64,000 nt of DNA from Lepraria neglecta (Eukaryota; Ascomycota; Lecanoromycetes; Lecanorales; Stereocaulaceae): the NCBI GenBank assembly GCA_033220425.1, contig CM065649.1:1178001-1242000 (forward strand), read 5' to 3'. Below, piece by piece: positions 5,885 to 62,700 of the stretch (the first letter of the stretch is position 1; the number at the start of each line of letters is the position of its first letter). The position numbers and the translations under genes were made by a program. The notes under the pieces were generated by a model. That model was not told the origin of the DNA. It did not search any database and saw nothing but the letters and a program-made list of their open reading frames with translations.

Positions 5885-7980
5885 TATTCTTCTCTTACAG
5901 TACGACCTAAGAATATAACCTATAATATATAGAATCCTCTACGCGAAGACTCTACTACCTCTCCCGCTAAATCCCCCGCCCTAAAGCCTTATGAATTCTC
6001 CCCCTTAATTAAGTAAGCCTACTAGTATTTCCTACCTGGCCTCCAAATGATCCTATACTTATCCGTTCCGATATAAATAATAGTAGCTATACTAGTAATT
6101 AGGAAGAGAAGGAGTAAGAGGAGGAAGGGGATACTATAGAAGAGGACAAGGAGAAGGCGTTAAAGGTTAGCAAGGCTTATAATAGTAGGGTTCTAAGGTT
6201 ATATAATATCGAGATAGGTAGGGTAGTAGTAGCTAGAGTAGCTGCGAAAGATCTAGAGGTATTAGAATAGGAGGATCGCGATAGGATATAAGTACTTCAA
6301 CCTCTACCTTACTGTTTACTTACTACTAAATACTACCCTAGTATTAATATAACCAAGGTAGAGGACTATCCGCAATAGTCTTAGAAAACATAGTAGTATA
6401 TAGAGTTATTATTTCAGCTATAGAAGGGAAACCGGTCTATACAGAATATACGAAACCTCTGTAGGTTATTATCTATTATAGCCCCTAACGGCAAAATAAA
6501 GAAGATTATACCGTTCATTTATTAGCTATACTGCGCGGCTTAGATAAGATAGCAGGCTTTCTGATAGGGGGGAGCCATCTATAGGCGAGATTCTGGTTTG
6601 GGGATGTCTAAACTAAATTATTACTTCTATTAAGGACTCTAGTTAACTCGGATAATATAGATGTTCGACTTAGGCAACACTAACGTCCGACTCTATCTAG
6701 ATCGAAATCCATATATACAAAATCATCTAATAATTCGAAACGTCGCCTTATTATAATAAGTATCTCTTACTAGAGAGATTGAAGCCACGGAGTTATTACG
6801 ATATATATCTATCGGCTCATAAATGGAATATTAGTTATCCGTGTGTCAAGAACAGCGCCGCCTAGAATATTAGCGTAGCGAAGTCAGGTATTATTCTTAC
6901 TATCGTACTAGCGAAAGTAGTAGGTAATTGGTTATAATAGTAGACGAAGATAATTAATATAAAGCGGATACTATATACTTAAGATATCTCTGGGACTACC
7001 GATCTAGTATAACTACCTCCCCACGAGATTCGTTATATTATATACCCGCCTTCGCTAGTATAAAATATAGCTCTTCGCGCCGAGGATTAAAGGATCTAAG
7101 ACGAAGCGAAAGTAAAATATACTAGATAATATATAATTACTCGTAAGGCTGGCAAGAGGATACCTATACTAACGACTACTAACTACTTTAAACGTATATA
7201 TAAACTACGCGCCGCTACTATAGTCCCAAGCCTTCTAGGATTCACTCGGCTCGATAACCTATCTCTATATACGGATAAGCTCGAAGGGGGGATTTATATA
7301 ACGGCGGCGAGGGTTATATAAACTTTATAGAGTTAGCTAATCTAAGAGAAGACTAGACTGAATACCCGCTAGCTAGCATCTATATCTATTATATCGAATA
7401 TTTTGTTAACAATAGTCCGAAGTTGGTTATATTAAAGGATTTAATTATCAAACTAAGGGAGGACATCGTCAGAAGACCGCAATAACTATCTATAATTACC
7501 AAGCTATCTACTACTATATATATTCTGGCGATAGTAGGTCTATAGCTCTTCCGCTATTTCGTCTTGGCTTTATACTAACCTTACTCTAGTAGTTTAAAAG
7601 GTATTATCCTAATAAATGACTATAGCGTGGCTCGGCCTTACCTTCCGGGAAACGAGATGAATTATTCGTACAGACATGCCAAGGAGACAACTATCATCAC
7701 TTTATTCCCCCTACGAACTGCGTTCTTAAAACCGGTATTACCCTTACCCGTACCTCTAGAAGCGTAAATATAGATACAGACTAGATAAAGTACTATAGGA
7801 TTTGATACTATAGGCGGGTCATTCGGTAGTAATAGTAAAGATAGAAGGTATACAAGTACAGTATATTTCTAGATGAGGCAAAGGGATCTTGATTCGATTA
7901 TTATCTAGATAGGCAGATAGAAAGCTCTTAGTAAGAGTAGGTATAATATAACAGAATTAACCTATAGGTATTACCAGTAG
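5885..7980. repeat. degenerate element, copy B
   Basis: Copy B of the same decayed repeat as 1310-4080, in the same orientation but shorter. The matching words, for example the region around the gagataggtagggtagta motif near 6200, are separated by C/T and G/A differences, as expected when two copies are mutated independently by RIP. The segment corresponding to about 2420-3080 of copy A is largely missing here. No functional frame remains. Confidence 0.6.
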
Positions 7981-10900
7981 TAAATTTAAGGACTAGTTTA
8001 AATATTGTAAATAGTAGACCCCGTTATTCGAATTAGAGACTAGAGAAACCACACTATTCAACTTAACGTCACCGAGATAATATTTATATCCCAGAATCCC
8101 GCTATAAAGACCCAGCCAATACTACCCGCCGCTTTTCCCAACCTAGATTCGTCTTCTCCAACAAATCCAAACGCTGTTACCGCTATAGAGGATATAGTTC
8201 TACTAACTCAATATATATCCGCTAGTAGAGATTCTCTTTATAGGACGTATTATAAATAGAAGGAGGTATCTAATCGTTATTAACTAAGCCGAAGAACTAA
8301 TTTAATCGGTTAAGCTAATAATGTAACTCCACATCCTACCCGTACAACTCAAGAGCCGGCGGTAAAGTATATATTATTAACGTACTACAGCGAATCCGGT
8401 GAGTCCGGCTCCGTATATATTCATCGATAGATACTCGAGTAGGTAGTATCTAAGGTCTTAAGGTCCCGGGCCAATAGGGCGGAGGCGGCGTATACTTATC
8501 AAGGATATAGAAGAAACGGCGATATTCGTTATACGTAGGAGAACTATAGCTAGAGATATAGTCCTAGTAGTAACCTGTTCAAAAAGGTAGGAAAATTTCG
8601 TTCAACTCGGATAGACTTTTATCCGACTCAGCTAAGTTTCTATCCGACTCAATTAATAGTCTTTAAGCTAACTCGATTTTATATTAATATTATATTAATT
8701 AAAATAATATAACAATAATACGCTAAAGAAGCCTATCCCTTTCCGAAAACCTTCGCCTTCTTCCCCTAAGAACCTCGCCTATCTAGCCACCTATAACTAG
8801 CTATATCATCGTGGATCATACTCCTTAATACCTTATACCACCTTGTTACTAGTGAAGACCCTTATATATATTAGATAGATAATAGGGATCTTCTAATAAT
8901 GGCTAAGATAAAGGGAGAATGACTGGCAGCTACTAGAAAAGCCTAGGAGACTAAAGCGAATAAGCGAAAGGTACGATTCGAACCGAGTAACTTATTCTAT
9001 ATATTAATATATTAGTAGATTAAGGCTATTATAGAAAAGTAGCTAGAACCCGAGAGAAGTACTAAAGGGGACGACGGAGTGGTAGAGCCTAGGAAATATC
9101 AAAGACGTAATAGTAACCTTAGCGAGGATATCTCTGAAAAAATACACGAAGAAGAGGTCTCTTTAAAGATAACTAGCGTCGAGGATATCGAAATATCTTC
9201 TAATAACCCTATAACCAGCCCTGCGAAGAGACCAGTGCCTACTATCGTTATAGGGGTATAACTTCCCTATACTCCTATATTCGGTCCGTTAGATAACTCT
9301 ATATTTAGGAGACGGAAAAGATGGGCTTCTCCGTTATAAGTACGATTAGTGTATAATAATAGATATAACCTATTTACCGTACAGCGTAAACAGACGCGGC
9401 TATCGATATCTAGAATCGATACTATATTACAAAGTAATACGAGTATTACCCAAAAGAAGACCGTAAGTTACCTATCGATATTACACGTATATTTAATACG
9501 CTAATATAGAAAGAAGGAAACAATATAGAACTATATAATAAAACGAGGTCCTTAAGGGAATATAGATACTAGGAACTACCTACGCAGCTCGGTAAATAAT
9601 AAATTAGAGACGCGTATTTATTAAATATAGCTAAAACAGCCGATAGTGCAGGAACAACGAAACCGAACATCTTCATATACAGAGTAGAATGGCCAGTATA
9701 CCGGACGACCTACCTAGACGCCCCAACAGATAATAACTAATAAGTTTAAATCTGCTAGTAAGAAATATCGAAAATCAAGAGAGAATCTAATCAGCAGACG
9801 GAAGGATGAATTAATAGTATATTTACCTCAGCATATAGGTCTTATAATAACTAATCGTTATAGTCGGTACAATATAAGTAGCGATAGCTAACCCGCACCG
9901 CACTACCTACACGGCGCAAGCGGCCGAATTCCAGTACCGCGACCACGGGACGATCATCTAATCCTAATGATCGGGTTCTATTATCTAAAAAGACAAGGCC
10001 TAGACTATTATTAACTTCGTTGCCTATACCTATATATATATTAGATATTGAATCTGAAGACGACTATAAGGAGGTAACTACGGAGGAGGCGGCGGGACCT
10101 ATCGCTTAGGGTAGTTCTAGGCGTCGCTAAGCGCAAAGATACCAATCCTTACAGGAATATTAATATATTTTCTACGCAACGAAGCCTATATTCCTCTCCA
10201 AGATTATGGGCGGTAATGATACTGATAGCCTATCACTATGGCCAGAATATAACCCGGTAGCTCTAAGTAACCTTATAATAAGAATATAGAGAGAATAGAA
10301 GGCTAAGCTCTAAAGAATAAAGGGGCCTTAAGTTATCGGCGATCTAGATACCTTAGGTAATATACTAACTCCTAAAGAAGCTCGCAAGGTTATCACTCCT
10401 AAACCCCTACCTATTTATATAACGCCGCGTAATAGCTAATATCTTCGTAGCTTATAGATAGCCTAAGCGAATTCAGAAGTTTTATAATAAGGAAAATAAG
10501 ATTAACCATTAAAATAGTAGTAGAATAGCTATACCTAACAGTCAAGGACCGGAAGAATAATATATCGAACCTACTATTTAATATATAATTTACTTTCGCG
10601 GATCTAGAGAAAGGTATAAGTATTCTTCTTTCCTAAACGAGAATGAAATATATAGCTAATAGGTCTAAGATAAGGGTTATTTTCTAGTACCGATAATTAT
10701 AATAAGTCTATATCGCATTTTTTTTTCTAATAGAATAAGCGCTATTAGACTCAGGTATAAGAGTATAGATCTATAGAAACCTTTACCTGCTAGTACTATT
10801 ATTTTCGTTATAATAGCGCTTTATTATATATTCGAAGAATATAAATATAGCTCCTATAGGATCAAGAGATAGGATAGTATATTAGTTAGTAGTAAGTTAA

Positions 10901-11884
10901 CCTGATACTCGAAGAATAACCTATATACTAATAATACCTTAAGCTATATTCGAATATATAATAGAGGTATAGTACGATATAGGTAAAATTAAAACGCGGA
11001 TAGTTACGGGACTACTTTATCATCGAATAATAGACTACTACTACACAAATAGGTATAGTAAGAACCATTAACTACTAGTCACTAATACGTTCAAGGATTC
11101 CCTAGAAGATCTAAAAAATTAACCGGACCTTTAGAGCGTTCTAGAGGAGATAGAAATAAATAATACTAGTATAATAGGCTAAGAAGAAGAGTACGGAAAT
11201 GATAAAGAATATACGGTATATATAAGAAGCGATTATAGGTATATATTATCGGCTAACACTGAAATCAAGGCTAAAGAACTATCTCCTGAGGAGGGTCTCG
11301 ACAAGACCAATTCAGAGTTTAGAAACTAGGATAGTTTTTTCGCTTCCCTTACCTTCAGTAATAATTCAGCGGAGATAACAGACATCTAGGTATTTTTAAT
11401 ATAGGACTTCGAGCGTATATAGAAGGAGGCCGGCCTATAAGTAGATAAGAGTCTTTAGGAAGAGGATTATATTATAGACATCGAAGAGTAGAGTAGGTCA
11501 GTAGAGAGGTAGATTATAGAGGATAAAATAGTATATCTGAATATTATTCCAATAGGAGAAGAACCTGAGGACTAGGCTACTAAGGATACTATAGAGGGGA
11601 TAGAGGATGGATCGATAGAGTATGAAGCTTAGGCGGGAGGAAGCCTGACGGAATCAAGCTATTAGCAATCGAATATATAGCTATTGAACGTATAATATGA
11701 AAATGATTATCGTATTGTCTTTTAAAATTGCCTAGCTCGGATAATACTGCCTACAGGTTAATTCTAGATAAGATGTCTAACTCAAACATACCCACTACAG
11801 CGGAGGATATATCCGAACTATCCGACTCGGATGACTTCTTATCTACTGATATTATCGATATACTACCTGAGCGTATATGTTTCG

Positions 11885-12160
11885 CATTCCGGAATAAATG
11901 CGTAATGGTGGCGTTGGTCCACGAAAGCAACTTTTGATACTGATATTGTAGGCGCCCAGCGCAGCAATTTGAGGTTGCAGATGCTGCTGTCGGCAACCTC
12001 GAGTTGCTGATTTGGCTGATTTCTCGGTCCGCAATCGACATGGGATGCAGACCCTGATCGCCATACGGCCTGCTGATAGCGCAAAACTAGCTGCGACGCT
12101 AATGACATAATCTTTTGGGAAAGCGCGATGAGATCGCTACGAGTTACCTTCGTCAAGTAC
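11885..12160. other. non-RIP island inside the AT-rich block
   Basis: About 275 bp in which TG, CA and GC dinucleotides are common again (for example the words tgctgctgtcgg and gatgggatgcag-like runs), bounded on both sides by TA-rich decayed sequence. Overlapping minus-strand frames of 70-97 codons cross it but show no domain. It may be a later insertion, or a unique sequence that RIP did not recognise as repeated. Its identity is unknown. Confidence 0.5.
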
Positions 12161-12436: not shown

Positions 12437-12564
12437 TGGGAGTTTTCTAGCGCTAGGGCACCTGTTGTAGCCTTTCTAGGCCTGCTAGCCCTGGCGTTAG
12501 ACCGCCCAAGCATCTATTTACATATCCACTTATACCGGTATATATAGCTTCAGGAGTAAGAACA
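12437..12564 (-). repeat. 128-bp terminal repeat, copy 1
   Basis: It is a near match to 12820-12947 and 52372-52499 and carries TA changes where the 52-kb copy has CA or TG (for instance ataccggtatatat instead of gtgccggtgtgtat). Confidence 0.75.
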
Positions 12565-12819
12565 CTAATCGCTATAGTAGGACTGTAGGTTAGTATATCT
12601 TATAATCAGATGCGGTTTCAGCCATGCGCCATGACCATAGGCCATAGCGAGAGATCCGTACTTCCTGAGAGCACTATTTATATGAGTATCCTACCAGCAG
12701 TTGGCTCTTCAGTCGAGTTCATCTCTTTCAGAGCCATAGCAGTTCTTTCCCGCCCACCCGCACCTTATATATAGCCTATATATAGCCTATCTACACTCCA
12801 GGTCTATACCGCCTAGGTA

Positions 12820-12947
12820 TAGGAGTTTTCTAGCGCTGGGGCACCTGTTGTAGCCTTTCTAGGCCTGCTAGCCCTGGCGTTAGACCGCCCAAGCATCTAT
12901 TTACATATCCACTTGTGCCGGTGTGTATAGCTTCAGGAGTGAGAACA
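12820..12947 (-). repeat. 128-bp terminal repeat, copy 2
   Basis: It has the same length as copy 1. Its body is closer to the 52-kb copy than copy 1 is, but its outer end reads CCTA where the others read CCCA, a RIP-type change. Confidence 0.75.
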
Positions 12948-13459
12948 CTAAACCGCAATTTAAATTCCGGACGTGGAAGAGGAGGTGGCCTAACGTAAAG
13001 ACTTGTACAAGGAGAGTGGTGGCTTTTTACCTTTCAAGAAGCAAGGGAGGCGACAGAAGGAACTCACACTTTCGTGAACGCATTCATGAGCACCAGTAAG
13101 TCTCAGACTACATGTGAAAAGAAGCTAGGTATCTGACGAAAGAAAGGCGCTTTACGCGAGCTGAGCTTCCCTGAGAGTAACGATGGGAAAAAGGTTTTGC
13201 TTGGTGGTGGAAACTGATTTTGGTCTTTTTAAGCCTGATTTCAATGCTATGGTTCGTGCTATCCACTGGACTGACTCTGGCTTGGAATTCCATTGTAGGC
13301 GTGTATAGTTATCGGCCAGCTGATAGATACCCTTCATCATCGGCTTGTTGGGACTCTTACGAGCTATACATTTGATTTTCCTAGATTTTATGGATGCGGT
13401 AGCTTCTACGCTACATTGGTGCTAGAAGATGACGATACTGATTTGAATAGAGAGAAAAA
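12948..13459. other. intergenic, no gene seen
   Basis: This is the transition from the repeat block to ordinary composition. Two overlapping minus-strand frames of about 60 codons (13108-13340) have no recognisable content and I do not call them. Confidence 0.5.
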
Positions 13460-45433: not shown

Positions 45434-46715
45434 GCAGGCTGCAACACGGCCCCATTTGAATGCATAGGATCGGCGGTCGGCTGAGCTACTGGAGCCTCAA
45501 ACAACGTGGAGTGATAATTAGCGTGGCGTTTAGGCCCTCAATGACATTATTTCTGGTAATATTTTCGCCCTTTGGCAAGACATCGTTTCAAACAGTCGGC
45601 TTACGGATCATAGCTCTTCCCAGATATGTAGGCAAAAACGCCACCATTCGCGGGCCTAGTTATATTCAATGTTTCATCCGCGCCTAGCAACGGTACCAGG
45701 TTGCTCATCCTAGACGTGCGGCCGTATCAGCCCCCACTTCTGGTCAGAAGACTCCATAATCGGCATTTGCTGTTCTCGCTGCCAGCATATTTAGTATAGA
45801 ACACCCGCCTCCTATGCTGCCACTTGACATCGTGCGGCCGTTTTACCTCCCCTAGATGGCCCATTCCCAGCTAAAAGCCCACATATTACAATTTGTGCTG
45901 TCAACAGCGATAGCTTAGCCTTCTAGGTGCTGATCACACAGGCCAGTGCCTAGCTGAACAGTTCCGAAAAGAGCCCTTTGCATGAGACTGCTTCCTTGTT
46001 CTGGCGATAGTGGCGCTAGAGGGGCGATATGTTTGGATTGTTCTTATTGGTGAATCTCCGATCTTACGTGCGTTTGGAAGTAACAGCCCCTATCTTTTTG
46101 AGATTTCTCTCGCAATGATTACATGTGTTCTGTACGTGGCCTTTACTGCTCTAAGGTGACCCTACCTCCTACTCCATTACCAGTTTGATATCTCAGTAAC
46201 AGGGTCACACGATGCCATTTTTTGCGGTGAACTTTTGATGCTTAGCCTTACTATGGCTTGAGCAGGTGTCTCCTTCGGTGGCGAAGTTGGAAAAAATCCA
46301 GGACATGAGACCGCTCGCTGCCCTGGATTCAGTGGCGATTGAGCGGCGAGGCCTCTGATTCGTTCTGATAGACTTTACGTGCGTATTCGAGAGGCCACAG
46401 CTTTATTTTTGGAATGCCTTCTCAGTCTGGTCTCATAGGGACTTTGGCCGCTCGACGTGGCCTTTCGTATTCAGTTTAACCCATACTCCGAAGTCTATGT
46501 ATTCAGGCTCTTTTCGTTCTATTCGTTCTCAAACCCAAACCCCAAGAACTGCTGGCAACCTGAATCATCCTTCCGATTAGCGATCGTGCTCTTGACCCTT
46601 CCAACCCCACAAGAACTACCCACGCCTCAACCAAATCCAGTAGGCACTCTGAGCGTTGAATTCCTTGTCCCGGAATGTGCGCTTACATTAGTGACATAGA
46701 ATACCAAATCCCACA
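45434..46715. other. intergenic, no gene seen
   Basis: About 1.3 kb of ordinary composition with frames under 80 codons. It separates the conserved block from the paralogue cluster. Confidence 0.5.
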
Positions 46716-47468
46716 ATGCCGCTCTGGCCGAGACCCCACAATCCAGAGCAAGATGAGATCAAAAAGCGCCGCATAGTCCGAGAGCAAGCGAAGGGGGTTC
46801 CTCGGGGGCCTTGGGGACCAATTTTGCCGATAGAGATCAGCCATGCTCTATCACAAGACGAAGCGCGATATGGAAGAGGAAAGCCCCGCAAAGTAAAAGC
46901 CTGGCGATTACCCTGCAACCCGAATGAAGCTGGCATGGTCGAGCTTGCCACTCTTAACGCCACGGTAGAGCATAATCCTGCAGATGGAAGACTACGCCAC
47001 ATACCTGACTGCGATGGCTTCTGGGATGAGAATGAGTGGAAACGCCGTCAACACGTACACTACGAACTCAACAGGGATGAGGAATGTCCATCCTTGGAAG
47101 GCTACTATGTTGTCTTCTTCACCGTCGAAAACGCGGAGTTACGCCATCAGAATGACAATTTCGATAGCTTGGACGTTGTGCTTGTACGTGGAGATGCATT
47201 CACCGTTGAAGTGTCAGATGTGGGTTATGATCTAGATAGTTGGGCAGTATACGAGGACGTACCCCAAGAATTTCTGTCTGACGAGTCGTCCGCCTTGAAG
47301 GAAACGCTCATCAACGTGATAAAGAAAGGAGCGATCGGTAGACTCGGTGTTGGTCAATCCCGATTCACTGGGTTTCGCACTTGTCGCGACTTTTCCGCCC
47401 ACCAGACGAGTGTATGTTCCGTTCCTGCTTCATGTTTAGAGGGCATTTTACATAACAGTCAAAGCTGA
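46716..47468 (+). CDS. cluster-family protein 1 (unknown function)
   Basis: 250 residues with no signal peptide or membrane segment. The charged N-terminal about 60 residues are followed by the family domain: KVKAWRLP, GRLRHIPD, W..W, PSLEGYYVVFF, LRHQND, VRGDAFTVEV and VYEDVPQEFLSDES. The same motifs in the same order occur at 48050-48712 and, more loosely, at 49304-49890, 50016-50606, 51231-51653 and 62215-62700. The last about 35 residues after QSRFTGFRTC have no counterpart in the other copies and may be read from what was an intron or downstream sequence. I know no function for this family; a small mixed alpha/beta domain is a guess. The frame is open throughout. Confidence 0.6.
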   Translation: MPLWPRPHNPEQDEIKKRRIVREQAKGVPRGPWGPILPIEISHALSQDEARYGRGKPRKVKAWRLPCNPNEAGMVELATLNATVEHNPADGRLRHIPDCDGFWDENEWKRRQHVHYELNRDEECPSLEGYYVVFFTVENAELRHQNDNFDSLDVVLVRGDAFTVEVSDVGYDLDSWAVYEDVPQEFLSDESSALKETLINVIKKGAIGRLGVGQSRFTGFRTCRDFSAHQTSVCSVPASCLEGILHNSQS

Positions 47469-48049
47469 GCTTGCTTGACCTACCAAACGTGTTCGAACCT
47501 ATCACACTCAACGTTCTTTCTCCGTATGTGTATGTCAACCGAGGCCTCTAAGTATTGTGCAACCAGTTGAGCGCCTTGCTAAACAGCGGCTGTGGAGGGG
47601 CGAAGCATTTAACTCGCTCGGGTGGACGATGAGTCGAGGCTATGTGCGCTGCAGAGTGACCACCTCTCATCTTTGGCCGGGCATTGTTATACTCCTTCAA
47701 TATTATGGCTCCTATCAAACGTGCTTCGTCATCCAAGGATTTTTGTACAATGGCTTTCTTGCAAGCCGCGTTTCATGAGGCTCAGGTGACTCTGTGCAGT
47801 TCTCGCCCCTTCGGTGTGGCCTTTGTGGTCATTCAAACGTCTCATCCAGCTTCTTCTCTTTCTTTTCAAGTTGGATTTCCAGAATTTACTGACCTAAAGT
47901 ACACGTTTCAAAAAACGGCCATCATCTTCACACTTGCAATATCCACGAGACATACAATACGTATCCTTTTCAAGGACAGTGCACACTTCCTACAGCCGGT
48001 CGAGGTTGTGCTGTGATTACACGGACGATATAGCGCACCCAATCCTACG
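47469..48049. other. spacer within the paralogue cluster
   Basis: Short frames only (62-110 codons). None carries the family motifs. Confidence 0.4.
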
Positions 48050-48712
48050 ATGCCATTCTATTTCAGCCAGCAGAAAAGCCAGGAGCGGCACGAAGCTAAA
48101 GAACGACGTCAAAACAAAGAGAGAGAGGAAGATCGAATCTTAGGGGAAGAACGCATGCGTGCTGAAGGATAAGACGAAGCCCAAACTCAATCTCGAGATG
48201 GAAAACCTCCCACCATCAAAGTCTGGGTACTCCCTTACGACTTGAGTCAAGAAGATAAGCTTGTCGAGCTCACCACCGCCGATACCAGCGAGGAGCATCA
48301 TCTTCTAGACGGAAAGCTCACCCATATACCGGACCTCCGCCACTGTTGGAGGGTGACACCAAATGTATGGTGTCTTCGTGAAACTGTCCAATACACACAT
48401 GCCTACGACAAAGGGTGCCCGTCTCTGGAAGGCCATTACATCGTCTTCTTTGCCCTTTCGAAAAGTACACGCCATCAGAACGACGAATCTGGCAGCTCGA
48501 CGCCTGTTTACGGAGATGTGTTCGTGGCCAAGGTATCAGGGCCGAGACAAGATATGTCCTGCGAGACCGCGTACGTGGATGTCCCAGAGGAGTATCTGTC
48601 TGAGAAGTCTTTTGTCTTACGCAATGCACTGATACTTTGTGTGGCACGGCGTGTGGAGGAAGCGCTGGTCGTTAGACACGTTGATGGCCGACTCAGAGCC
48701 ATAGGACTCTAG
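48050..48712 (+). pseudogene. cluster-family protein 2, with one in-frame TAA
   Basis: ATG at 48050 starts MPFYFSQQKSQERHEAKE, a charged N-terminus like that of the copy at 46716. TAA at 48170-48172 stops it after 40 codons, but the same frame then continues without a break for 180 codons through KVWVLPYD, GKLTHIPD, CPSLEGHYIVFF, RHQND, VYGDVFVAKV and YVDVPEEYLSEKS to 48712. It is the closest relative of copy 1. The surrounding codons (EG*DEAQ) would suit Gln, so CAA to TAA is the simplest history. The gene could be dead, could use a downstream start, or the TAA could lie in an intron I did not recognise. Confidence 0.55.
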
Positions 48713-49303
48713 GCCTTCCAGCGACTTCTTAGTCTGCAGAATAGGTACTTTCCTATTATTGTGATGACACTCTTAACGATACCTAATTTCGATTGTGACT
48801 CTATTAGATAAATCGGTCTGACAGCCATCAGATCTCCAACTGTTCCGTTTTGTACATCTTTGCACTTATACATTTTCCTTTTTCTGATTATGGTCTGTAA
48901 TAATGGGAACAGTGGCAACCGAGGGTATCTTTCCCGGAGAACTCAGGGCCCATGTAACGTTCTGCCAAATTGTAGCCCTCCGTATCTCGCACTGTTGTCA
49001 AGTCTAAGATTTCTCAGTCATCTTCTGTTGACATCAGCTCTAGTCCTCTTTACATCATCAAAATCTCTCACGTCCGTAGACTTCGTTGCTGTCCTTGTGA
49101 CACTCTTTTTACGGCCGCTAGGTGTCGAGAAGAGCCAGACATCTGACCAATCTTCGTCATCAATCGTAGTACAAGGACAGGTGTCGAATGCTCGGTCCTA
49201 AAGACCCTGGACCTGAATTCATCTTCTCACACATCACTGAAGCGTTCAGGCCTCAACACTCGGTAGCAAAATTCACCCTGGAGCCCACCAAACAGCGCCT
49301 AAG

Positions 49304-49890
49304 ATGTCAGGCTATCAACCGCTTCAAAATGGACCTACGAAAGTGCCCTCGCTGCCCAGAAGGGGACACCACCGGTCAAGAAGAAAGCCAAAAACAAAAC
49401 AGGACCCCACACCACTCGGGAGTGTTATGCGCTCACCCGAAGCCCCGTCTCAGAGAACAGCCTTAGAAAGCGCAGCCAAAATCTGAACAGCATGCCTGAC
49501 CCCCGCTCCGATTGGGGTCTTGGCTGGAACGACCGCAGAGTAGTCTGGTTCTTTACGAGTACCAATAATGAAAGAAACCCAGCACACGGCTGGTACGCCA
49601 TCTTCATGTCCGGGGACACCGGCTATACTCCAAATAGGAACATCAACTTCAAGAGTGAAGGAAACTCGGTACACAAAGATGTCTTCATTGCGAAGGCTGT
49701 GTATCAGGGGAAGGATAAGCAGGGGAGGATTTCTTATATGGACATTCCGAAAAAGTTCATCGAGCAAGATGCGCTCAACACGGTGACAGGAAATTATCCG
49801 ACAACAGGGGGCTTTTTGTCGTTGCCTTGGATGGACGAGTCTCCGGTCGAATTTGAAGAGAAGGTTATGCGGCAAACTTTGAGTGGATGA
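49304..49890 (+). pseudogene. cluster-family protein 3, frameshifted at the 5' end
   Basis: From 49492 an open frame of 132 codons carries MPDPRSDW, WYAIFMSG, HKDVFIAKAV and SYMDIPKKFIEQDA, the spaced equivalents of the family's HIPD, Y-x-x-F, G-D-x-F and D-V-P boxes, though G is replaced by K in KDVF. Upstream the same frame stays open (KKKAKNKTGPHTTREC) to about 49325, but a natural start, MSGYQPLQNGPTKVPS at 49304, is in another frame; the two could join by a single shift near 49360. Alternatively the protein starts at 49492 as a short form. It is the most diverged plus-strand copy. Confidence 0.42.
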
Positions 49891-50015
49891 GCGGAATGAT
49901 TATATGGGCAAATTCATCAATTGCGCTCCTATCTCTAACCTTGTTTCAAGAACTCGGCCTCCACCTGCAAAGCTCAACTCTGAAACCCAATTAAGATGCC
50001 AAGGAAAATTGCTGG

Positions 50016-50606
50016 CTAGCGATTCCCAATAGCGCGACGTGTTCTAAGCCTTAGTGCCATACCCTCACTGTCCAATTTGACGGCATTAAGTCGCTGCCCA
50101 AGCTCCATAGCAAACGCGCTCTCCGCGAGCACATAGAATAACATTGTGTCCCAGCCCGACCCAAGGTATCCCCTCGGAATGTCCGCATAATCAGCCCAAC
50201 CAAACGAATTCAGCTCGTGGCCCTTCAATTTGAAAACGAAAGCATCGCCATACACATGATTCCAGCTGTGTCGTTTCAAGAAATACTTATTACAAGGCAG
50301 ATCAGGTGTAGAGCCGTTCTTGGGTGTGACGCATCTGCACATAAGCCAACGCCCATTGAATTCTCCGTTTGGTGCATTAACGCCGTTGCGTCCGACGACG
50401 ATGTAGTTGCGAGTCCTAGTTCCTCCTAGGATGGCGTTGAAATCTGGGACGTGTCCCAGCATTCCCATGGTGAAGCTGTTTCCGCTGCTGGTGGTTGGCA
50501 CAATGGTTGTATGTATGTCAGAGCCGTCGGCTGGAATACGGATTACTCGTATGATGGAGGGTTGGTCGGCTTGGCCGCGTGCTCTCAACGTGAGGGTGGG
50601 GATCAT
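50016..50606 (-). CDS. cluster-family protein 4
   Basis: 196 residues in one intact frame, opposite in strand to copies 1-3. Motifs in order: IIRVIRIPADGSD, GMLGHVPDF, FNGRWLMCR, HVYGDAFVFKL, YADIPRGYLG. The N-terminal charged extension of copies 1 and 2 is absent; the domain starts within 20 residues of the Met. Overall closest in layout to copy 6 at 62215-62700. The C-terminus is basic (RLRTRRAIGNR). No signal peptide or membrane span is evident. Function unknown. Confidence 0.6.
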   Translation of the reverse strand: MIPTLTLRARGQADQPSIIRVIRIPADGSDIHTTIVPTTSSGNSFTMGMLGHVPDFNAILGGTRTRNYIVVGRNGVNAPNGEFNGRWLMCRCVTPKNGSTPDLPCNKYFLKRHSWNHVYGDAFVFKLKGHELNSFGWADYADIPRGYLGSGWDTMLFYVLAESAFAMELGQRLNAVKLDSEGMALRLRTRRAIGNR

Positions 50607-51230
50607 GGTGAAGGCGTGAGAGGACTATGACGGAGACTGTTCCACTGCGAGCCTGTTTCAAGGTCCGGATAGGATGCGGTCAATCTATGTTTGCTCGATG
50701 GCGCTTTCCGATGGCGTGCAATATGAAGGTTCGATATGCTCTTGTAATCTAGTCAGTATCACAGAGCATAGAGTAAATTCTAGAATACCAACCTTATAGG
50801 AATGGCCGTAAGGAACCTGTTCAGAAGATAAGACGTGCTCAATGTTCGCTTTAAACGGGCGGGAGTGTTTAGAGAGAGCGAAGTAGCAAGGTTCCCAACC
50901 CGCTACTGAGTAAATGGGAAGAACGATAAGGAGGTAAGAATCTGAAGCAGTGGCAATCGCAGAGTGACAAAAGAGGAAAGCATGAGAAATAAGGGAAGTC
51001 GCAATCCAACAAGCTCACAATAGCGGCTCGTCAGCTTGCTGGAACCACACTCCCCTCGCATTCGGCGTAAGTCTGCAATCGTGTTTTCTCACTGAGTTTC
51101 CTGGTCTGGTCGATTAAAATCAGCGGCGACTGATTAAGTGCATACGCCACCCACGTCTTGTTCGAACCATACCTGGAAGCTTCCATCAAATGCGAAATAT
51201 GCAAATAACCCTGACACTGGCTTCTAAGTC

Positions 51231-51653
51231 CTAGTATTGTTTGATAATTGCAAACAATTCCTTGTATACCACTGGCTCCTCAAACTCTTCCGGCATGTCC
51301 AAAAACTCCATTTGCCGCGCGTCAAGGTCTACATCCTTGAGTATGATGACTTCGCCGATGATGCCCATCGAGCATCGGTGTTCAAACACCGGATTGTGAT
51401 CGCCTGGAGTACCCCAAAGGACGTAGTAAGAGCCATACGCCGCGGGCGAAACTTGACTCTGGTGCACAAATCCGAATGCTCTGGCCTTGTCGCTCATTTT
51501 GCGGAAGTCTGAGAGGTTTAGTGTACCACCTTTCTTGTGAGATACCTTGATAGGATCGACGTTTTGCCGCTCGGGTCTGGAGTGAGCATGTGGGGGGACC
51601 TTGAGGCATACGAGGGTTCCCTGCGAGCTCTTCGAGATGGTTTTGTGGGAGTC
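51231..51653 (-). CDS. cluster-family protein 5, 5' end uncertain
   Basis: The frame is open from 51653 to 51231 (140 codons) but has no ATG until 51497. Before that Met the frame already reads GTLVCLKVPPHAHS and KKGGTLNLSDF, which correspond to the family's first strand and G-x-L box, so either a first exon is missing or the gene is truncated at its 5' end. After it come GSYYVLWGT, IIGEVIILKDV (G-D-A-F box degraded to G-E-V-I) and FLDMPEEFEEP. From the ATG at 51497 the product would be 88 residues. It is the most divergent copy. Confidence 0.42.
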   Translation of the reverse strand, partial: DSHKTISKSSQGTLVCLKVPPHAHSRPERQNVDPIKVSHKKGGTLNLSDFRKMSDKARAFGFVHQSQVSPAAYGSYYVLWGTPGDHNPVFEHRCSMGIIGEVIILKDVDLDARQMEFLDMPEEFEEPVVYKELFAIIKQY

Positions 51654-52371
51654 TTATTGAGTCTAACATTCTAAAATTTGGCCCGTTGACTTTATTGTAC
51701 TCGAACTTTTTAGAAGTCTTTGGCTTTTGTAGACCAGTATAGGGCCCTCACCTTGGTTTTGAAAATGTTTGTAGCAGATGCTGAATTTCTGAAATAGCGA
51801 GGAAAGCACCCCGTTGATTGTGATGTTGAAAGTCGATCGGTAATGAATTTTGTTAAAGAAAAGGACGAAGAGGGATATGTGTGTTATGTTATACGTGTCA
51901 AGAAGGCACTTGGCCTTTTGTGTAGCCTCATAAGACCTAGAGTTGCGGGATATCAACTGAGTTGTAGAAACACTTGCACAACTCCGGCCATAAGTGAAGG
52001 GCAAACGATCTTCTCCTAGATCTCAGCCGAATCGTGAATGTTCCTCGCTAGTACACATGAGGGTAAGATTACAAACGTCTTCAAGTTTCACGACAGGCTC
52101 TGGACCGCCTGCAAGAAGATAAGCCATGGCATTTGACCGAGTGACGGAGTCCTCCGTGATAGTCTTGAGCCACATAGCACAAAATGATCATCTCTTACGA
52201 GGACTCATATGCTGACTGAGCTCGCTGGCAACAATACAAGCTGGGTTGGAGCTCTTTGGAAGAGCTTGTCGTTTAGGGACTGGAACTTCGCCGGCTGAAA
52301 AGTTTGGGCGCTCACTGATAGCTTGGGTTAAACGTATCCTGTCCTTGAACATTAAGGAGCTGGACATTCAG
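51654..52371. other. intergenic, no supported gene
   Basis: A 113-codon minus-strand frame (51663-52004) is Ser/Ile/Phe-rich without domain features. I treat it as chance. Confidence 0.4.
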
Positions 52372-52755
52372 TGTTCTCACTCCTGAAGCTATACACACCG
52401 GCACAATTGGATATGTAAATAGATGATTGGGCGGTCCAGCGGCAGAGCTAGCAAGCCTAGAAAGGCTACAACAGGTGCCCCAGCGCTAGAAAACTCCCAT
52501 GCCTAGGCGGCATAGACCTGGAGTGTAGATAGGCTATATATAGGCTATGTATACGGTGCGGGTGGGCAGGAAAGAACTGCTATGGCTCTGAAAGAGATGA
52601 ACTCGACTGAAGAGCCAACTGCTGGTGGGATGCTCATATAAATAGTACTCTCAGGAAGCACGGATCTCTCGCTATGGCCCATGGTCATGGCGCATGGCTG
52701 AAATAGCATCTGATCGTGAGACACGCTAACCCACAGTCCCACTGTAGCGAATAGC
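52372..52755 (+). mobile_element. partial copy of the TRIM-like element
   Basis: A 128-bp terminal repeat (52372-52499, TGTTCT..CCCA) is followed by about 255 bp matching the internal part of the 12437-12947 element in inverse orientation. The second terminal repeat expected after about 52755 is missing, so this copy is truncated. It keeps CA and TG where the 12-kb copy has TA, so it escaped most RIP. A 103-codon frame on the minus strand (52545-52856) runs through it and is probably not a gene. Confidence 0.65.
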
Positions 52756-53479: not shown

Positions 53480-55147
53480 CTAAAGCGACGGGTCCGGGCT
53501 GCCGTTTGATTCACACCATACGAATTTCCAACGAGCATGTTCATACCCTTTTCTCTCGGTAATAGCGACCTGTATATCTTCTACCGGCGTCAAAATCGAG
53601 GTTGTCATATGAGGACGACTCTTGGGCAAGGGCCAAGACCCTCCTGATACAGGTCTCAGATCGTACTTCAGTACCATCATCACGAGCATGATCATGATCT
53701 CATTTGCAGCGAGGAAGCGCCCTGGGCACACTGAGGCTCCGCTTCCATACGCTCTGTACGCCGATGCCGGTCGCTTGCCTTCATCTCGCTTTTGCACGAA
53801 TCGCTGAGGATCAAAGTCTTTGAATGAAGGACCCCATACTGAGATATTGTTGTGCAGTTCGGCAGACGGTATCAGAAGTATAGAACCTTCCTTCAAGAGG
53901 TACTGATCCTCAATCATGGTATCTTTCAGGACTACGCGCCCGGATGCGTTCGTCGACTGTACTCGGAGCGTTTCTAGAACCAATGATGCTAATTGAGGAC
54001 AGCCGGCAACAATTTCGGCGATGTTAACACGATACACAAGACCCTCAGCAGAATCCTTTGAGGGATGAATATGAGAAGGTCCTTTCGCCCGTGTCTCTTC
54101 CAAAAGAGATGGCTGTGAGTAAACATAATACAAGGCCCAAGAAACTGCGGGAACGGTGTTTACCAGTAGTCCATAGCAAAGACTCAGGTCGAAACGCTCG
54201 ATGTCCTCGATTGAAACGCCGTGCTTGCGGTTGACTTCATAGCGGGCTTGGACTATGCGGGAGGCCTCTTTGTGACCATCACGCGCATAATATTGGTGGA
54301 AGCTTTGGAAGAGCGTTTTACGGCCTTGGTGGCCTTTAGGAGCGATGATATTTGGGAGAACGTTGAGTCCCAAAAGCGCAAATTCCTTGTCAATATTCCT
54401 GAGGTAGTCAGTTCTCCTGGACAAAGCTCTCGTACGTCGCAGTTTATATAATTGACTCATCAGAACCCTGCTTCGACTGCGGGGTCCTGGAATGGATTTT
54501 TGCCTGCTCCATATATGGCGTCTGTGCTAGCCCGGGTAACAAGCTTTCTGACCCATAAGAAAAGATGGAAATCCTCGTTGCTGGTGATAGTATAAACAGA
54601 GTCTAGAAGACTTGATACACTGTCTAACATGGCTTGTGTATTACGATCCAAGTCCTCCCCCGGAGCCAAGGTAACGTGCATAGGATGAAGGGTTTCAGGT
54701 CGGCAGCCCCAAGCACCACTCTCTTCATCCAAGTTCGCTTTGAGAGCCTCCAGTCCATTTGCGCTAGGAACAAGGATTCGCTTAGCGAACTCTACAACGT
54801 GAGGGGCGAAAGAGACTGATTTTGAATGGCGATCTACAGCTGCCACAAGTTTCGGTGAGTTGACGATATAAATTTTGCTCCGAGGCACGCGAAGAGTATA
54901 TATTGGCAGTGAGTATTTAGTGCTTTGACGGGGTTAGATACGTGGATGGAGAGCCTCGTCCTTGGTAAACTGACCTGATCTTGGTATAGTAGCGCGACCC
55001 ATCCCGAAGCATTCCAAGTAAGTGACCCACGTAGGGAACGGATTGAGGTATCAGTGGCGGTTCCTTCGCGTCATGAGAAATATTCAGGTAGTTTTCCAAC
55101 AGCAGCCAACAACCAAAAGCAATCCCAAAAGCTATGAGCCAAGCCAT
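53480..55147 (-). CDS. cytochrome P450, membrane-anchored
   Basis: A heme monooxygenase whose substrate is unknown. Exons 55147-54975, 54922-54467 and 54398-53480 give 515 residues. The first intron (52 bp, GTCAGT..AAAG with a CTAAC branch site) joins YYTKI to STKYSLPIYTLRVP. The second (68 bp) uses a weak GTTCTG donor to join EAG to NIDKEFALLGLNVLP; its boundary is the least sure. Residues 1-20 (MAWLIAFGIAFGCWLLLENY) are an ER membrane anchor. Visible motifs: ETLR (K-helix ExxR), FVQKRDEG region, and heme loop YGSGASVCPGRFLA with the Cys ligand. The pattern recalls fungal P450s related to the CYP7/CYP8 type, which is a tentative placement. Together with the methyltransferase and second P450 it may form a small metabolic cluster. 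Confidence 0.82.
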
Positions 55148-55533
55148 GAATTTAAAGGGCCAAATCCTGAAGGAATGTCACGACACATGAACGGGATAGC
55201 CTCGGGGTTCCGTCTCTTTACTACTAAATAGCCCCGCCCGAAGGAATGGGCACTCTACCTGCAATGTGCAGCACACCGTACCTTCTAGATCAGTTTCGGC
55301 CCGTGTGACCATTTGCAATTAGCGCGATGCAAGTCAGCACTGCGCAGCCCAAGATATCCTATCACGTCTACAGTAGCCTACAACCCGGGATTTAGGCTCA
55401 GGTCGAAGCCTTGCTACTACCTTACTTTCTTCTGTTTCCTCTCGTAAGTGTGCGGGTGCACTCATTGGCTTGATATAATTTCTAGCTATTCAACTTGGTC
55501 TCGAAGTCCACGTTGCCCCAACAAACGGTAGCA
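55148..55533. promoter_or_regulatory. region between divergent P450 and methyltransferase
   Basis: About 385 bp between the two start codons, which should hold both promoters. No defined motif is supported. Confidence 0.4.
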
Positions 55534-57027
55534 ATGGCATCTGGCAGTGTCAGTCAGTATCTATCACAAATTGAAGAAAACGTCAAGAATTATCTTGAAT
55601 ACTTCAAGTCCCGAGATCTACCAGAGCCGTCCTACGATGCAGGTGACGGATTGGATCCGCAGCAATCACCACCGAACGACATCATAGCAAGTAGAAATGC
55701 TGCAGTAGAGGCTGCTAATGAGCTACATCATCTTCTCCTTGGCCCACTCGGCCTTTTTCTCAGCTCACCCGGGGACGTAAGTGCTCTGTGTATTCATTCC
55801 GTACCTTTGACTGATGCCTCCAGCAATATCTGCTGCTCAGTATGCAGTACATCTACCGGTACAAAATAGCTCATCATGTTCCCAAGGAGCAAGCAACGAC
55901 GTTTGAACACATTGCTCGTGACTGCGGATTAGATTTGCTATAGCTCGTCACGTCTTCAAAGAGCCCGACGTAGGCTCAATTGCGCATACGGCTGCATCCA
56001 AGCTTTTGGTGGACAATCCACTGTTGGAAACCTGGATCCTCAACATTGCCGAGGAGTTCTGGCCTTCCCTGACCCGAGTAGGTGGCCCTTTCCATCTGTG
56101 TTGACCAGAGGCCGTTCTGATCATATTTGCAGATGGTGGACGTGACTGCGACATGGCCTGGATCTCAGGAACCGAATGAGACGGTATGCGTTATGCCCTA
56201 GGTCTGAATGTGGTGCTCCTCATAATGTTCATCAGAGATATTCATTATCGCACAATACCAATGAGAACCCGTTTGATATCATCAGAAAGGAACCCAAAAG
56301 GCAAGAGCAATTCGTAAATGCCATGAACTACTCCCACCTTCACTCGTCCTACAGCATGGATCACTTGACCGACAATTTCGACTTCGGCTCCATAGAGGCC
56401 GGAACGATTGTCGACGTCGGCGGCTCCCACGGTCAGGTCAGCATTCCGATAGCGCGAAATAATCCACAAGTCAAATGCATCGTTCAAGATCTACCTGACA
56501 CGATCGTTGGCCTTGACAGCAGATTGCCAGAGGACCTCAAAGACCGCATCTCTGGCATGGCGCACGACTTCTTGACTCCACAACGAGTGAAAGGGGCCGA
56601 CATCTATCTGTTTCGGTGGATCCTCCATGATTGGTCTGATAAGTATTGTGTCAAGATACTGCAAGCTTTGACCCCGGCATTGAAAGAAAGGTGCAATGAT
56701 CGTCATCAACAACATCTGCATTCCGCAACCAGGGCAATTGGGCATTGCTGCGGATCGATCCCTAAGGTAAGTCCACGAATTCAGATTATCCATCTAGCCA
56801 ACCGTCTTGGTTCATGGCCATGAAAGGATAAGTCTTTATACAAGCTAAAACATCTTCATAGGCTTATGGACATCTCAATGAAAGCTTTCAACAATGCGAG
56901 GGAACGTGACCCTGAAACCTGGGCGACTTTATTTTCAAAGGCCGATCCACGCTTCCAACTCAAGGGAATCACCTTGCCCCCAGAGGCCAGGATGGCAATC
57001 ATTCTCGCAGAGTGGCAAGGGGAGTGA
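55534..57027 (+). pseudogene. class-II O-methyltransferase, frameshifted
   Basis: A SAM-dependent O-methyltransferase of the COMT-like family, broken. Exons by family pattern: 55534-55776, 55824-56077, 56133-56183, 56236-56766, 56862-57027. Exon 1 has EAANELHHLLLGPLG. Exon 2 reads HIARDCGLDLL then TAG at 55941-55943; the sequence resumes one frame over with AIARHVFKEPDVGSIAHTAASKLL, so a frameshift plus loss of a few codons occurred. Exon 4 carries the SAM site VDVGGSHGQVS and RWILHDWSD, then shifts again near 56690 (ALKE / KGAMIVINNICIPQPG). Exon 5 ends MAIILAEWQGE. Everything between is well preserved, so inactivation is recent, or there are assembly errors. Confidence 0.72.
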
Positions 57028-57281
57028 TGCGAGATTGGCCTCGGCACATCTAAGCTAGATCTATCAAGCGTTGGCGGCTGAAGGTGACTTAATTGGGAAC
57101 ACTGTATCCCCCTTACGGTTGCAGCAATCCTGGAGGGAATTCTGGTGAAATTCGCCTTCGCTTTAGAACATACATACAATTGACATTCTCCTATTGAGAA
57201 ACATTCTTCGATCCATTCCGTATACGTTAAATTGCCCCACTTTCTATCTCTGAAGATAGGACAACCCAGCTTGGTCATCAT
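57028..57281. other. convergent 3' region
   Basis: It lies between the methyltransferase remnant and the second P450. Nothing is recognised. Confidence 0.35.
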
Positions 57282-59124
57282 TCACACTCGCCTACATTCC
57301 AAATGAACGTTATCCGCGTTGCGCATCCTCAATAGCAACTCCAAATCACAATCCTCTGTCGTAGTCAAAGCTCTCTTCGCGGCCATCTCCGCGCTCTCCC
57401 CAGGCTCCTGCATAACCCCGACACGATGATCGCGAAGAATACAAGCCAGAACAGCGACGAACTCGACCTGGGCAAATTTGGCACCGGGGCAATTCTGTGG
57501 ACCGTCTGACCAGGGGAAATAAGTACTCTGCTTGTGATCGACAAGTGTTTCCTGATGCAGTCGGGTGCTCAGGTCAGTCTTCTCGGAATGCTCGGCCATT
57601 GAGGCCACAGAGTGAGAAATCCATCGGGAGGGTTGCCAGTGCAGAGGATCCTGCCAGTATTTAGGATGCGTTTGGACAGTGAGTAGGCTGGGCATGACGC
57701 CTGTGTGGGGTGGGATAGTGATTGTTCTGTCGCCCATTCGGAGTGTTTGTGGATGCTGACTAGTCCATTTTGGAAGTGCTAAGATAGGTGGATAGAGGCG
57801 AAGAGTTTCGAGCTGTACATTATGTTAATTTTTTGACATTCGATTAGCATTTCCAGGTAGTCAATATATACCAGTACTGCACGGCATCTCTTAAGATCCG
57901 AAAAGACTTGGGTGTAGTCCCAATTTTCGCTGTGATCATTCACGGTAAATTCTCTTACTTCTTCACCTACCCAATCTTGAACCTCAGGGTTTGCTGCGAG
58001 TAGAAGCATACTAAAGGCCAAAGTGTTGGCGGTGGTGTCATGCCCGGCGAAATTAATAACGAAAATGTTCCCGAAGATTTCGTCTACTGTGAGACCTTTG
58101 GACTGTTGATCCTCCTTAGCTTTCGCAGTCGCCTCTTCCTTTTGATGGGTCCCTAATGCCCGCACAAAAGATGTCATCAAGCTCCCTGTACCCTTCTCGC
58201 CGCGGTCCATCAGGGATTTCTCCTCGTCCAACATGTGAACCATGTACTGTTTGAATTCAGCGGCGGCCCTGCCCAGGCGTGCCCAAGATCGTGGTATTGC
58301 TGGAAGCCGTAATAGTCGAGGAGGCACAAGCATTAGGAATATAGCGTTATCCAACACCGTTTGCAGTGCATCCCGGTAAGTACTTGCTTCATTAGTTTCT
58401 TTTTGGCTAGAGCTGCGGAATTTATATGACTGGTTAAATCCAGTTGCTGCGAGTACATTGAGTGAAAGAGTCCGCGTATCTTTGGCAACACTGGATATCC
58501 CAGACTCTGTACTACTAATCCACGACTGTAGCATTTCTCTTGTCTGTTTCAAGGATTCTTTCCAGACGAAACTCATGATGCTTTCATTGAAGGGCGTGGC
58601 GAGGACCTTCCTATGGCGCGGCCAGTCCGTCCAGCTAGCTGTAGAAATACAAGGTCCGTAGACTTCGAGCAACTCTATGGCCAAATTAGATAAGTCTTAC
58701 GATGATTCTGAACTTACTTACTGTACATCTTGCTCGGACGTTGGAAGTCACCTCTCCGTATAAATATGTCGTGGATTGCATCAGGGTCAGCAACGTAAAC
58801 GTAGATGTCACGAGGGCTCACGAGAGCCCAGGCAGGGCCATATTTCAGGTGCGATTTCGCCTTGTCATGGAAATGCCAGCCTCTGCGAGAATATCGACCA
58901 AATGTGCCCCAGTCAATGCGGAGGTAATCTAGCAGACGCCAAAGCGTTGGCTCCAGCAAGATCCAAGCTATGTTGATAGGATCGACAGGTATTCGAACCA
59001 AAGGGATCCCCATAGAAGAGGCGCGCTGGTAGTTGATCTCCATAGCAGCGAGGCTCCAGGTGAGGTAAGCCAGAGCAAGGCATAGTAAGAGTTGCACGAT
59101 CATCCTTTTGCAACACGTTGTCAA
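57282..59124 (-). CDS. cytochrome P450, second of the cluster
   Basis: Exons 59124-58722, 58674-57872 and 57812-57282, with introns of 47 and 59 bp (GTAAGT..CATAG, GTATAT..ACAG), give 578 residues. The N-terminal segment (MIVQLLLCLALAYLTWSLAA, from a Met eight codons in) is an ER anchor; either Met could start. Motifs: WPRHRKVLATPFNE (C-helix), NFAGHDTTANTLAF (I-helix oxygen-binding AGxDT), ETLRLYPPI (K-helix ExxR, restored by the last splice), and heme loop FPWSDGPQNCPGAKFA. It looks intact. The type resembles fungal CYP3/CYP4-like clan enzymes, but the substrate is unknown. It is convergent with the methyltransferase. Confidence 0.87.
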
Positions 59125-60090
59125 ATCATGAATGGGTAGCGGTGCCTGCTTGTGTTGCTTGTGTTGCTTGTGTCGTAAAGCTGGCCTGAGGACGATTGTT
59201 TTGGTGCCAAGCTTTGGTCCTTCATACCTACGTAAAATACTCTAGCCGTATCGTAAATATCAGTATGATCGACATGTTCCAGGTGACGTGGCCCCTCATT
59301 AGTACCTTAATGTTCTTTCTTTGCTAGGCATCTTAAACAACTCTTGACGTTGTTCTCATCCTTGCCTCCAACTTGCAGCAAATCCTGTAGAATTTAAAGC
59401 GGCCTTATCAGAAAACTCATCAGTCAAGTATGCGATAACTTTTTGAAGCGGACCAAGAACTCTGGGCGCTGGAGACGCGCTGCTTCTGGCGCGTTATTTG
59501 GGGCGTTGCTGGGCGCGTTCCTAGCGCCCGCGCCCTAAAACATCAATATTCCAGCGCTGCGCAGTTAACTCACACAATAAGCTACTTGTCGGGGAAGCGC
59601 TTTTAGGAGCATTATCATATAGGTCTTATATAGCTGGCCTTGAAATTTGGGGCCCAACGGAATCGATTTGGGGCTGCCTCTTGCTGCCTCGTGACTACCT
59701 CGGGGTACCTTAGTAGCCCTAGAGGAGAAAGGGATAATATACTATATTCTCCGGGTCGCGATTGTTTTTCACCTAACGCTGGTTAATTCGATATATCGAT
59801 TTCTATCTACTTGTCGCTAAGCGCAGTGCCCCTTATGGGCCTCGCTCCATCTTGTAGATCCATAAGAATCAATACATTCATGATCTGACCTAAATGCCCT
59901 GAGCAAGTCCAGAAGCACTGTTACAGAGTCCAGAAGCACTGTGTTACATTGATTCTTCCTATTACAGAAGCTCGGCCCATTGTCAGACTGCTCAGAATAC
60001 GGCCTCAGAGACACTCGTATCCTCGAGTGTCCGTTGTGACTCATACCAAATTCACCGCACCCTTCACACTCAACAGCGTCAACAGCCGAG
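59125..60090. other. upstream of second P450 and of the gag gene
   Basis: It includes a 9-bp tandem repeat (gcttgtgtt units, about 59148-59175), a GC-rich stretch with repeated gcgc words (59465-59560) and a duplicated word (gtccagaagcactgt) near 59910-59943. I looked for a terminal repeat matching the sequence downstream of the gag gene and did not find a convincing one. Confidence 0.4.
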
Positions 60091-61206
60091 ATGGCTCAGC
60101 AGAATCCTAGACCATATATGCCAGGTATAGACTTCGATAGCCTTTCATCATCCCAAATTCGCGATGGTGGTCACGGACACTCACAGGAGTCCTCAGAGTC
60201 CAATACCCGACGGCTACAAGCTCGTATTGCAGCTCTCGAGGAGCTGGTCAATCAACGCCCTAACACTACACCTCTGCGGCGGGGAAGAACACCAATGGAC
60301 CTTAGCGTTCTTGCACCCAGAACTGCTAGTAATGCCCCTACAACCCGCACAGTCGATGGCCGCCTACCGCTGGGTGAAATACCCGCCACGATGACCAATA
60401 TCTCCCAGCCAGACCGGAGAAAGATCAAATGCGCGGAGCCCCCAGTCTTTACAGGCCCCCCTATGGACGTCCGATTATGGATCATAGACATAAACGATTT
60501 CTTCAACCTACAAGTCATCGAAGGCCCAGCTATACAGGCATCTACGGCCTGCACCTATCTTGACCAAAAGATCAGAACCAGGACACAATTAATGAGGCTA
60601 CAAGGACAGAGAGAGACGTTTGAGGATTGGGAGAGACTACAGGTCTGGCTATTGGAGAACTATTCGGTAGGGGATGTCCAACTGGACGCGGAGCTCAAGA
60701 TAGAGCGTATCCGAATGAGATGGAACGAGTCAGTACAGGACTTCATCAACCGGTTCGAGACCTTGGCAACAGATTTAACCTGGAACGATGCCGCTATCTG
60801 TCACGCCTTCCGACGGAAGCTCTCGGCAGAGATCCTTGAACGGATCCATCAATCTCGTTCAGAGCTTCCGGACACATTTACGGCATTCAAGAAGGCGGCT
60901 CAAGCCGCAGAAAGCCACATTAAAATAGGGAAACGGACCTTGGAGGATCGCGAGGGATGGGAACAACGAGGACAAAAGAAGGTCCGCTTCGCTAATAGTA
61001 ATCGACAGCCCTTATCGAATGACACTAATCAGGGTCAACCTCAAATAAACCCTTTCCACCCCACTAGCCCTAATAGTCGTAAGAGGGCTGACATTACTGC
61101 GGAAGAGAGGAAGAGACGACGTGATAAAGGCTTGTGCATGTGTTGCGGGGAAAAAGGTCATTGGGTGAACATTTGCCCCAACGAGCCAAAAAACGTCCGC
61201 CCATAA
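60091..61206 (+). mobile_element. gag gene of a Ty3/gypsy-type retrotransposon, pol missing
   Basis: Intact 371-residue frame. An N-terminal coiled-coil-like part (NTRRLQARIAALEELV) is followed by the capsid-type gag domain (PPVFTGPPMDVRLWI, EDWERLQVWLLENYS, ESVQDFINRFETLATDL, AFRRKLSAEILERI). A basic linker ends in a zinc knuckle CMCCGEKGHWVNIC (C-x2-C-x4-H-x4-C) near residue 350. Downstream, another frame continues for about 40 codons (IIPEAVS, TAG at 61224-61226, then AKEASKDIPAPTELGLASPPS) and ends; no protease, reverse transcriptase or integrase motif follows. It is therefore either a truncated insertion or a retained gag-only gene. The frame shows no RIP-type stops, unlike the 5' repeat block. 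Confidence 0.75.
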
Positions 61207-62214: not shown

Positions 62215-62700
62215 CTATTTTTCCGTCGGCTCGCCAAGCTGCATCACCATCTTCTTCACCACATTGCTCCTTAAGATCTCCTTCGGCACATCCTCGTACG
62301 CCGCATCTCCCTGCCCATCCATTCCATCATCAAGTACTTTCACGACGAAGGCGTCCCCGAAGCAGTGATCTCCGACGTGCTTGTTGGGTTCCAGATGCGC
62401 GTCGGCCAGGGATCGGAAGAGGTAGTATTTGCCGTTCAAGCTCGATATCGTGGAGCCTTCAACTTTCATGGGTGTTGCAATCCGGCGTTCCCAGCCTTCG
62501 AGACCCCAGTATCTGTGGAAGTCGGGGTGGTGGCCGAGTTCGGAGTTCGGGGCATTTTCTTCGAGGGAGACGGTCTTGATGTGGATCATATGAAATTCGT
62601 AGCCATCGGATGGGATGACGAGGACTCTGATGTGGCGTCCCATCACTGAGCTGGGTAAAGGGTGTGTGTCTTTTGTGATCGGAGTCAGCGTATCAGGCAT
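62215..62700 (-). CDS. cluster-family protein 6
   Basis: 161 residues, intact. It repeats the family layout: HIRVLVIPSDGYEF, SELGHHPDFHRYW, LNGKYYLFR, HCFGDAFVVKV, AYEDVPKEIL. Closest to copy 4 (50016-50606): both have the short N-terminus, the IP-x-D-G start and the GDAF box, and both lie on the minus strand. It lies about 11.6 kb from the main cluster, beyond the P450 group and the gag remnant, so the family is dispersed by duplication or by later insertions. Function unknown. An antisense frame (62036-62368) overlaps it and is not called. Confidence 0.6.
   Translation of the reverse strand: MPDTLTPITKDTHPLPSSVMGRHIRVLVIPSDGYEFHMIHIKTVSLEENAPNSELGHHPDFHRYWGLEGWERRIATPMKVEGSTISSLNGKYYLFRSLADAHLEPNKHVGDHCFGDAFVVKVLDDGMDGQGDAAYEDVPKEILRSNVVKKMVMQLGEPTEK

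Follow-up and report, generated by a model that had tools for sequence, protein, structure and literature searches.

Six genes that lie inside 16 kb of a 64-kb stretch of DNA (the window, C4:1178001-1242000) are, as judged from profile comparisons, members of one real gene family, and a search of the 42.0-Mb genome (11 contigs) places at least four further copies elsewhere, for a total of at least ten. Fungal genomes contain many unnamed, multi-copy, half-broken gene families. For one such family we provide a working profile, a minimum copy number, an inventory of the copies that are still open, and a structural lead toward the phage/plasmid domain DUF3846, which is testable and not established. 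We also correct the picture of the cluster: it is not a recent local burst. We consider, with moderate confidence, that the family is old, dispersed, and partly decayed, and that it encodes small (~150-250 aa), single-domain proteins that are probably not secreted and would provide a non-catalytic binding domain.

The six window copies (A to F, three per strand; Table 1) were found where an earlier note on this DNA had placed them. Each copy was scored with a profile built from the other five, and the score was set against those of 5000 composition-preserving shuffles of that copy. In this leave-one-out test A, B, C, D, and F were recovered at 33-82 bits, with 0/5000 shuffles scoring as high in each case. 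Copy E reached 3.8 bits with the window-only profile, a score that was also reached by 24/5000 shuffles (25/5000 in a repeat); addition of the four dispersed copies to the profile gave 23.6 bits and 0/5000 shuffles. The single BLAST partner of E is weak (E 0.048) and lies on contig C6; this C6 copy (I) was found independently of E when F was the query (E 0.014). Single-protein searches within the genome connect B to A (E 1.5e-27, 44% identity) and F to A, D, B, and C (E-values of 7.1e-10, 3.1e-7, 1.3e-5, and 1.6e-5, respectively). Since five copies are recovered directly and E is recovered via relatives elsewhere in the genome, all six can be assigned to one family; thus, the proposal in the earlier note that the six genes belong together stands, for E solely after the dispersed copies join the profile. 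Amino-acid identity between copies is 13-40%.

Table 1. Copies of the family in the window (A to F, window positions) and elsewhere in the genome (G to J, contig positions).
Copy	Position	Strand	State	Profile score
A	46716-47468	+	250 aa; frame opens with an ATG before box 1; boxes 2-5 exact	77.4 bits
B	48050-48712	+	ATG at 48050; in-frame stop 48170-48172, between ATG and box 1	82.2 bits
C	49303-49890	+	open over 195 aa; box 1 degenerate, with no ATG in frame before it	34.5 bits
D	50016-50606	-	196 aa; frame opens with an ATG before box 1	33.1 bits
E	51231-51653	-	open over 140 aa, with no ATG in frame before box 1; most divergent copy	
F	62215-62700	-	161 aa; frame opens with an ATG before box 1; query of first fold model	78.7 bits
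G	C2:4031696-4032166			36.7 bits; 0/5000 shuffles
H	C3:1258681 onward		two overlapping frames	31.0 and 8.6 bits; 0/5000 shuffles each
I	C6:4605419-4605808		two pieces	7.5 and 23.3 bits; 0/5000 shuffles each
J	C4:2416346-2416853		two pieces	17.3 and 14.5 bits; 0/5000 shuffles each

The copies had been described as ranging from intact to frameshifted, and their frames, which are in differing states of decay, bear this out: those of A, D, and F begin with an ATG and stay open, B is interrupted by an in-frame stop, and C and E lack an ATG in frame before the first motif box. Downstream of the stop in B, a 179-aa open frame (48173-48712) contains all five boxes in exact form. No consistent coding signal is seen in codon usage; the copy's own frame is best in three of the six (C, D, and E), by small margins, in a test that is low in power because the reference genes show little bias.

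The five boxes, for which the earlier note had claimed a shared order, were counted as literal patterns. Box 1 is exact in three of the six window copies (B, D, and F), box 2 in three (A, B, and D), box 3 in four (A, B, C, and F), and boxes 4 and 5 in four (A, B, D, and F). Copy C deviates at two positions in box 2, two in box 4, and one in box 5, and E, with 0/5 boxes exact, is 3 positions off in each of these. The closest literal match of E to boxes 2 and 4 is out of order (residue 12), and the closest match to each inexact box 1 (A, C, and E) and to box 3 of D is also misplaced. By this count the literal boxes fit A, B, D, and F well and C fairly, but E poorly.

The dispersed copies (G to J) were scored with a profile built from A, B, C, D, and F, again with 5000 shuffles. 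Copy G contains a 48-nt putative intron with GT and AG ends, signals seen in the sequence, after its fifth codon, and the gene would be open if this 5' intron is spliced. The other three are broken when read by eye: H by a frame change, I by an in-frame stop, and J by a stop and a frame change. Read without introns or further upstream exons, six copies (B, C, E, H, I, and J) contain a stop or a frame break or have no usable start. Copy H lies between frames resembling Lon protease and Hsp70, and J lies near CLASP-like and LIM-domain-like frames (both by eye, with no family scan).

Synonymous differences among A to G (pS 0.60-0.90 in 21/21 pairs) are near or at saturation, which argues that the copies are old; with such saturation, "fast-evolving", the description previously given to this family, is indistinguishable from "old". 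In a ten-row tree, in which two rows are pieces that cover no more than half of the columns and the branches of C, H, and E are long, G pairs with J (99/97), the sole starred branch of seven and one that joins two copies outside the window. The A-B pair (94/99) and the grouping of E with I, the C6 copy (92/88), fall just under the starred level, and the remaining branches are weak or unresolved. A seven-row tree that omits the broken dispersed copies has 0/4 branches starred (C with E, 86/94). The window copies are not shown by these trees to form a clade. Consequently, the earlier term "local expansion" is apt for A and B, the only window copies that look like local duplicates, but not for the family, given that at least four copies reside elsewhere, E groups with a copy on another contig, and pS is near or at saturation. 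The pS values across all pairs and the grouping of E with the C6 copy also rule against a recent local burst. Old duplications would instead have given rise to the copies, which may now be in the course of being lost; if so, each is probably dispensable.

Structure prediction and hydropathy offer some indication of the type of protein encoded. The AlphaFold model of F, made with six rows, is weak, with a pLDDT of 61.3 and a pTM of 0.60. It places strands at residues 22-28 and 36-44, a short strand at 56-58, and a helix at 60-64, followed by strands at 71-79, 89-96, and 116-121 and by C-terminal helices up to residue 155. With modest confidence, the fold is predicted to start with a β hairpin, to continue with a short helix that follows the P-D box and with three more strands, and to end in a C-terminal helix. 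When A served as the query, the resulting second model was poor (pLDDT 48.0, pTM 0.40), with a broadly similar order of elements. Over the first 40 residues of the ATG-started copies (A, D, and F), the highest Kyte-Doolittle mean of any 12-residue segment is 0.72-1.16, and, as judged by hydropathy, none of the three has a signal-peptide-like hydrophobic N-terminus. By the same measure no transmembrane-like stretch is present in any of the six window copies, which contain 1-6 cysteines. Since a hydrophobic N-terminus is missing, the protein probably stays inside the cell, and since the residues conserved throughout the seven rows of a MAFFT alignment are limited to Asp, Gly, and Pro, with no candidate catalytic set, a binding domain seems more plausible than an enzyme. 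Such a non-secreted, binding role is our guess from the sequences.

By sequence, Pfam and NCBIfam contain no match to the family, so that it is indeed unnamed, as had been supposed, and no relative of solved structure was found. Viral scans (three queries) and one prokaryote scan, which rely on short peptide patterns and for the most part detect close relatives, confirmed no relative. Foldseek comparison of the F model with BFVD gave 273 matches at E <= 10; among the best 50 of 273, which were examined, none has E <= 0.001 (query pLDDT ~61). The top two are the Pandoravirus proteins A0A2U7UES5 and A0A811BSW1 (annotated "Rho binding incomplete domain" and "TOP2c incomplete domain"; E 0.0039 and 0.041). 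These are longer (478 and 384 aa) and align to the model with gaps at rmsd values of 13.8 and 16.8 Å. Among PDB entries, PH-like and lipocalin-like β folds were matched, all below the level regarded as telling.

One alternative, which we regard as unlikely, would make the family a remote eukaryotic offshoot, acquired long ago, of DUF3846 (PF12957), a domain of bacteria, plasmids, and phages. DUF3846 was suspected from the order of motifs ahead of any fold search, and in the subsequent fold search with F two DUF3846 proteins ranked third and fifth among the best 50 of 273 BFVD matches (E 0.087, probability 0.77, and E 0.18, probability 0.35; model pLDDT 61). However, these matches have TM-scores of 0.30-0.40 and rmsd values of 7.3 and 10.2 Å, and neither is at E <= 0.001. 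By eye, DUF3846 resembles the family in being a small single domain with a similar broad order of hairpin, helix, and strands and with a G-[DN]-A-like box near the end; it differs in its V-D-D-E-G-like box ([VL]-D-[DE]-[EN]-[GA]), for which no counterpart was seen by eye in the family. The comparison set comprised 12 DUF3846 proteins (5 phage, 7 plasmid), all 12 of which are matched by PF12957. Although the best local stretch found by hhalign is the first hairpin of both, its probability is 0.23% (E 0.27), and this score is reached by 3/150 column shuffles in the default mode, with 2/150 in each of two other modes; as a positive control, DUF3846 split into two halves gives 98.8%. With six family rows hhalign gives 0.28%, on a single column. 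Model searches between the family and DUF3846, in both directions, produced negative bit scores only (7/12 and 10/12 rows reported), and PF12957 (cut-off 27.5 bits) matches 0/6 window proteins. Membership in DUF3846 is thus not supported by sequence. PF12957 has no match in the genome at E <= 10; 14 control genomes are likewise empty, so this alone does not show absence. The family and DUF3846 may nevertheless have a fold in common. In the fullest version of this idea, the family would be a eukaryotic, intron-bearing branch of the DUF3846 fold, possibly common to the pandoravirus proteins, whose uptake was so old that sequence similarity is gone and which was kept as a small multi-copy binding domain; we think this decidedly improbable. 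In this analysis DUF3846 was seen in bacteria, plasmids, and phages only.

The remaining alternatives concern the setting of the genes rather than their fold. Birth-and-death families in accessory regions might be expected to encode secreted, host-contact effectors or toxin-like proteins, and such a role would suit copies that are clustered, divergent, and in part broken and that have P450s, an O-methyltransferase, and a gag gene nearby. Nevertheless, we consider it very unlikely here: by hydropathy the ATG-started copies show no hydrophobic N-terminus and none of the six a transmembrane-like stretch, the proteins contain 1-6 cysteines, and two copies (H and J) reside near frames that by eye are housekeeping-like. 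Equally doubtful is the suggestion that the copies were spread by an unrecognised mobile element and are what is left of it. The copies are scattered and many are broken, and a 388-bp repeat that adjoins the gene cluster (52367-52754) matches 12565-12952 at 92% in opposite orientation. Yet no DNA is shared, at E <= 0.01, between the window and the 9-kb surroundings of the four dispersed copies, the repeats within 45500-52500 are short only (16-31 nt), the six window copies contain no Pfam domain, and one copy (G) has a canonical-looking intron. An old family of small, probably intracellular proteins, dispersed and now decaying, remains the reading that we prefer.

Its surroundings are of mixed character. 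A family scan identified as window neighbours PRP31 (with Nop and Prp31_C domains), a DEAD-box helicase, P450s, and a retrotransposon gag gene; these, together with an AT-rich, RIP-like block, fit a probable fungal origin of the DNA. The earlier note had placed the family in an accessory region next to transposons and P450s; the nearby P450s and gag gene agree with that view, but the splicing gene PRP31 and, for H and J, the housekeeping-like frames seen by eye do not. The gag frame (60040-61206, 388 aa; PF03732, E 1.4e-7) lies 1 kb from copy F and ends in a zinc-knuckle-like motif (by eye). P450 frames (53480-54526; 57282-57824 and 57779-58696) and an O-methyltransferase (56146-56823) lie side by side, and the genes at 53480-58696 are perhaps part of a secondary-metabolite cluster.

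Several other features were observed. Proteins on Rhizobiales plasmids (NZ_CP072872.1, NZ_CP064190.1, and others) are weakly like a phage DUF3846 protein (E 6e-4 to 0.9), and their naming is inconsistent, some being annotated "protein psiB" and others DUF3846. Within 12437-12952 of the window there is a shorter direct repeat (12439-12568 and 12822-12951, 95%). Positions 1-12000 form an AT-rich block with a GC content of 0.35-0.38 and a composite RIP index of 0.80-1.19; this index is negative in each 2-kb step from 14001 onward. The block contains diverged repeats, 1308-2422 with 5884-6954 (74%) and 3090-3959 with 6959-7827 (72%), and looks like RIP-mutated repeats.
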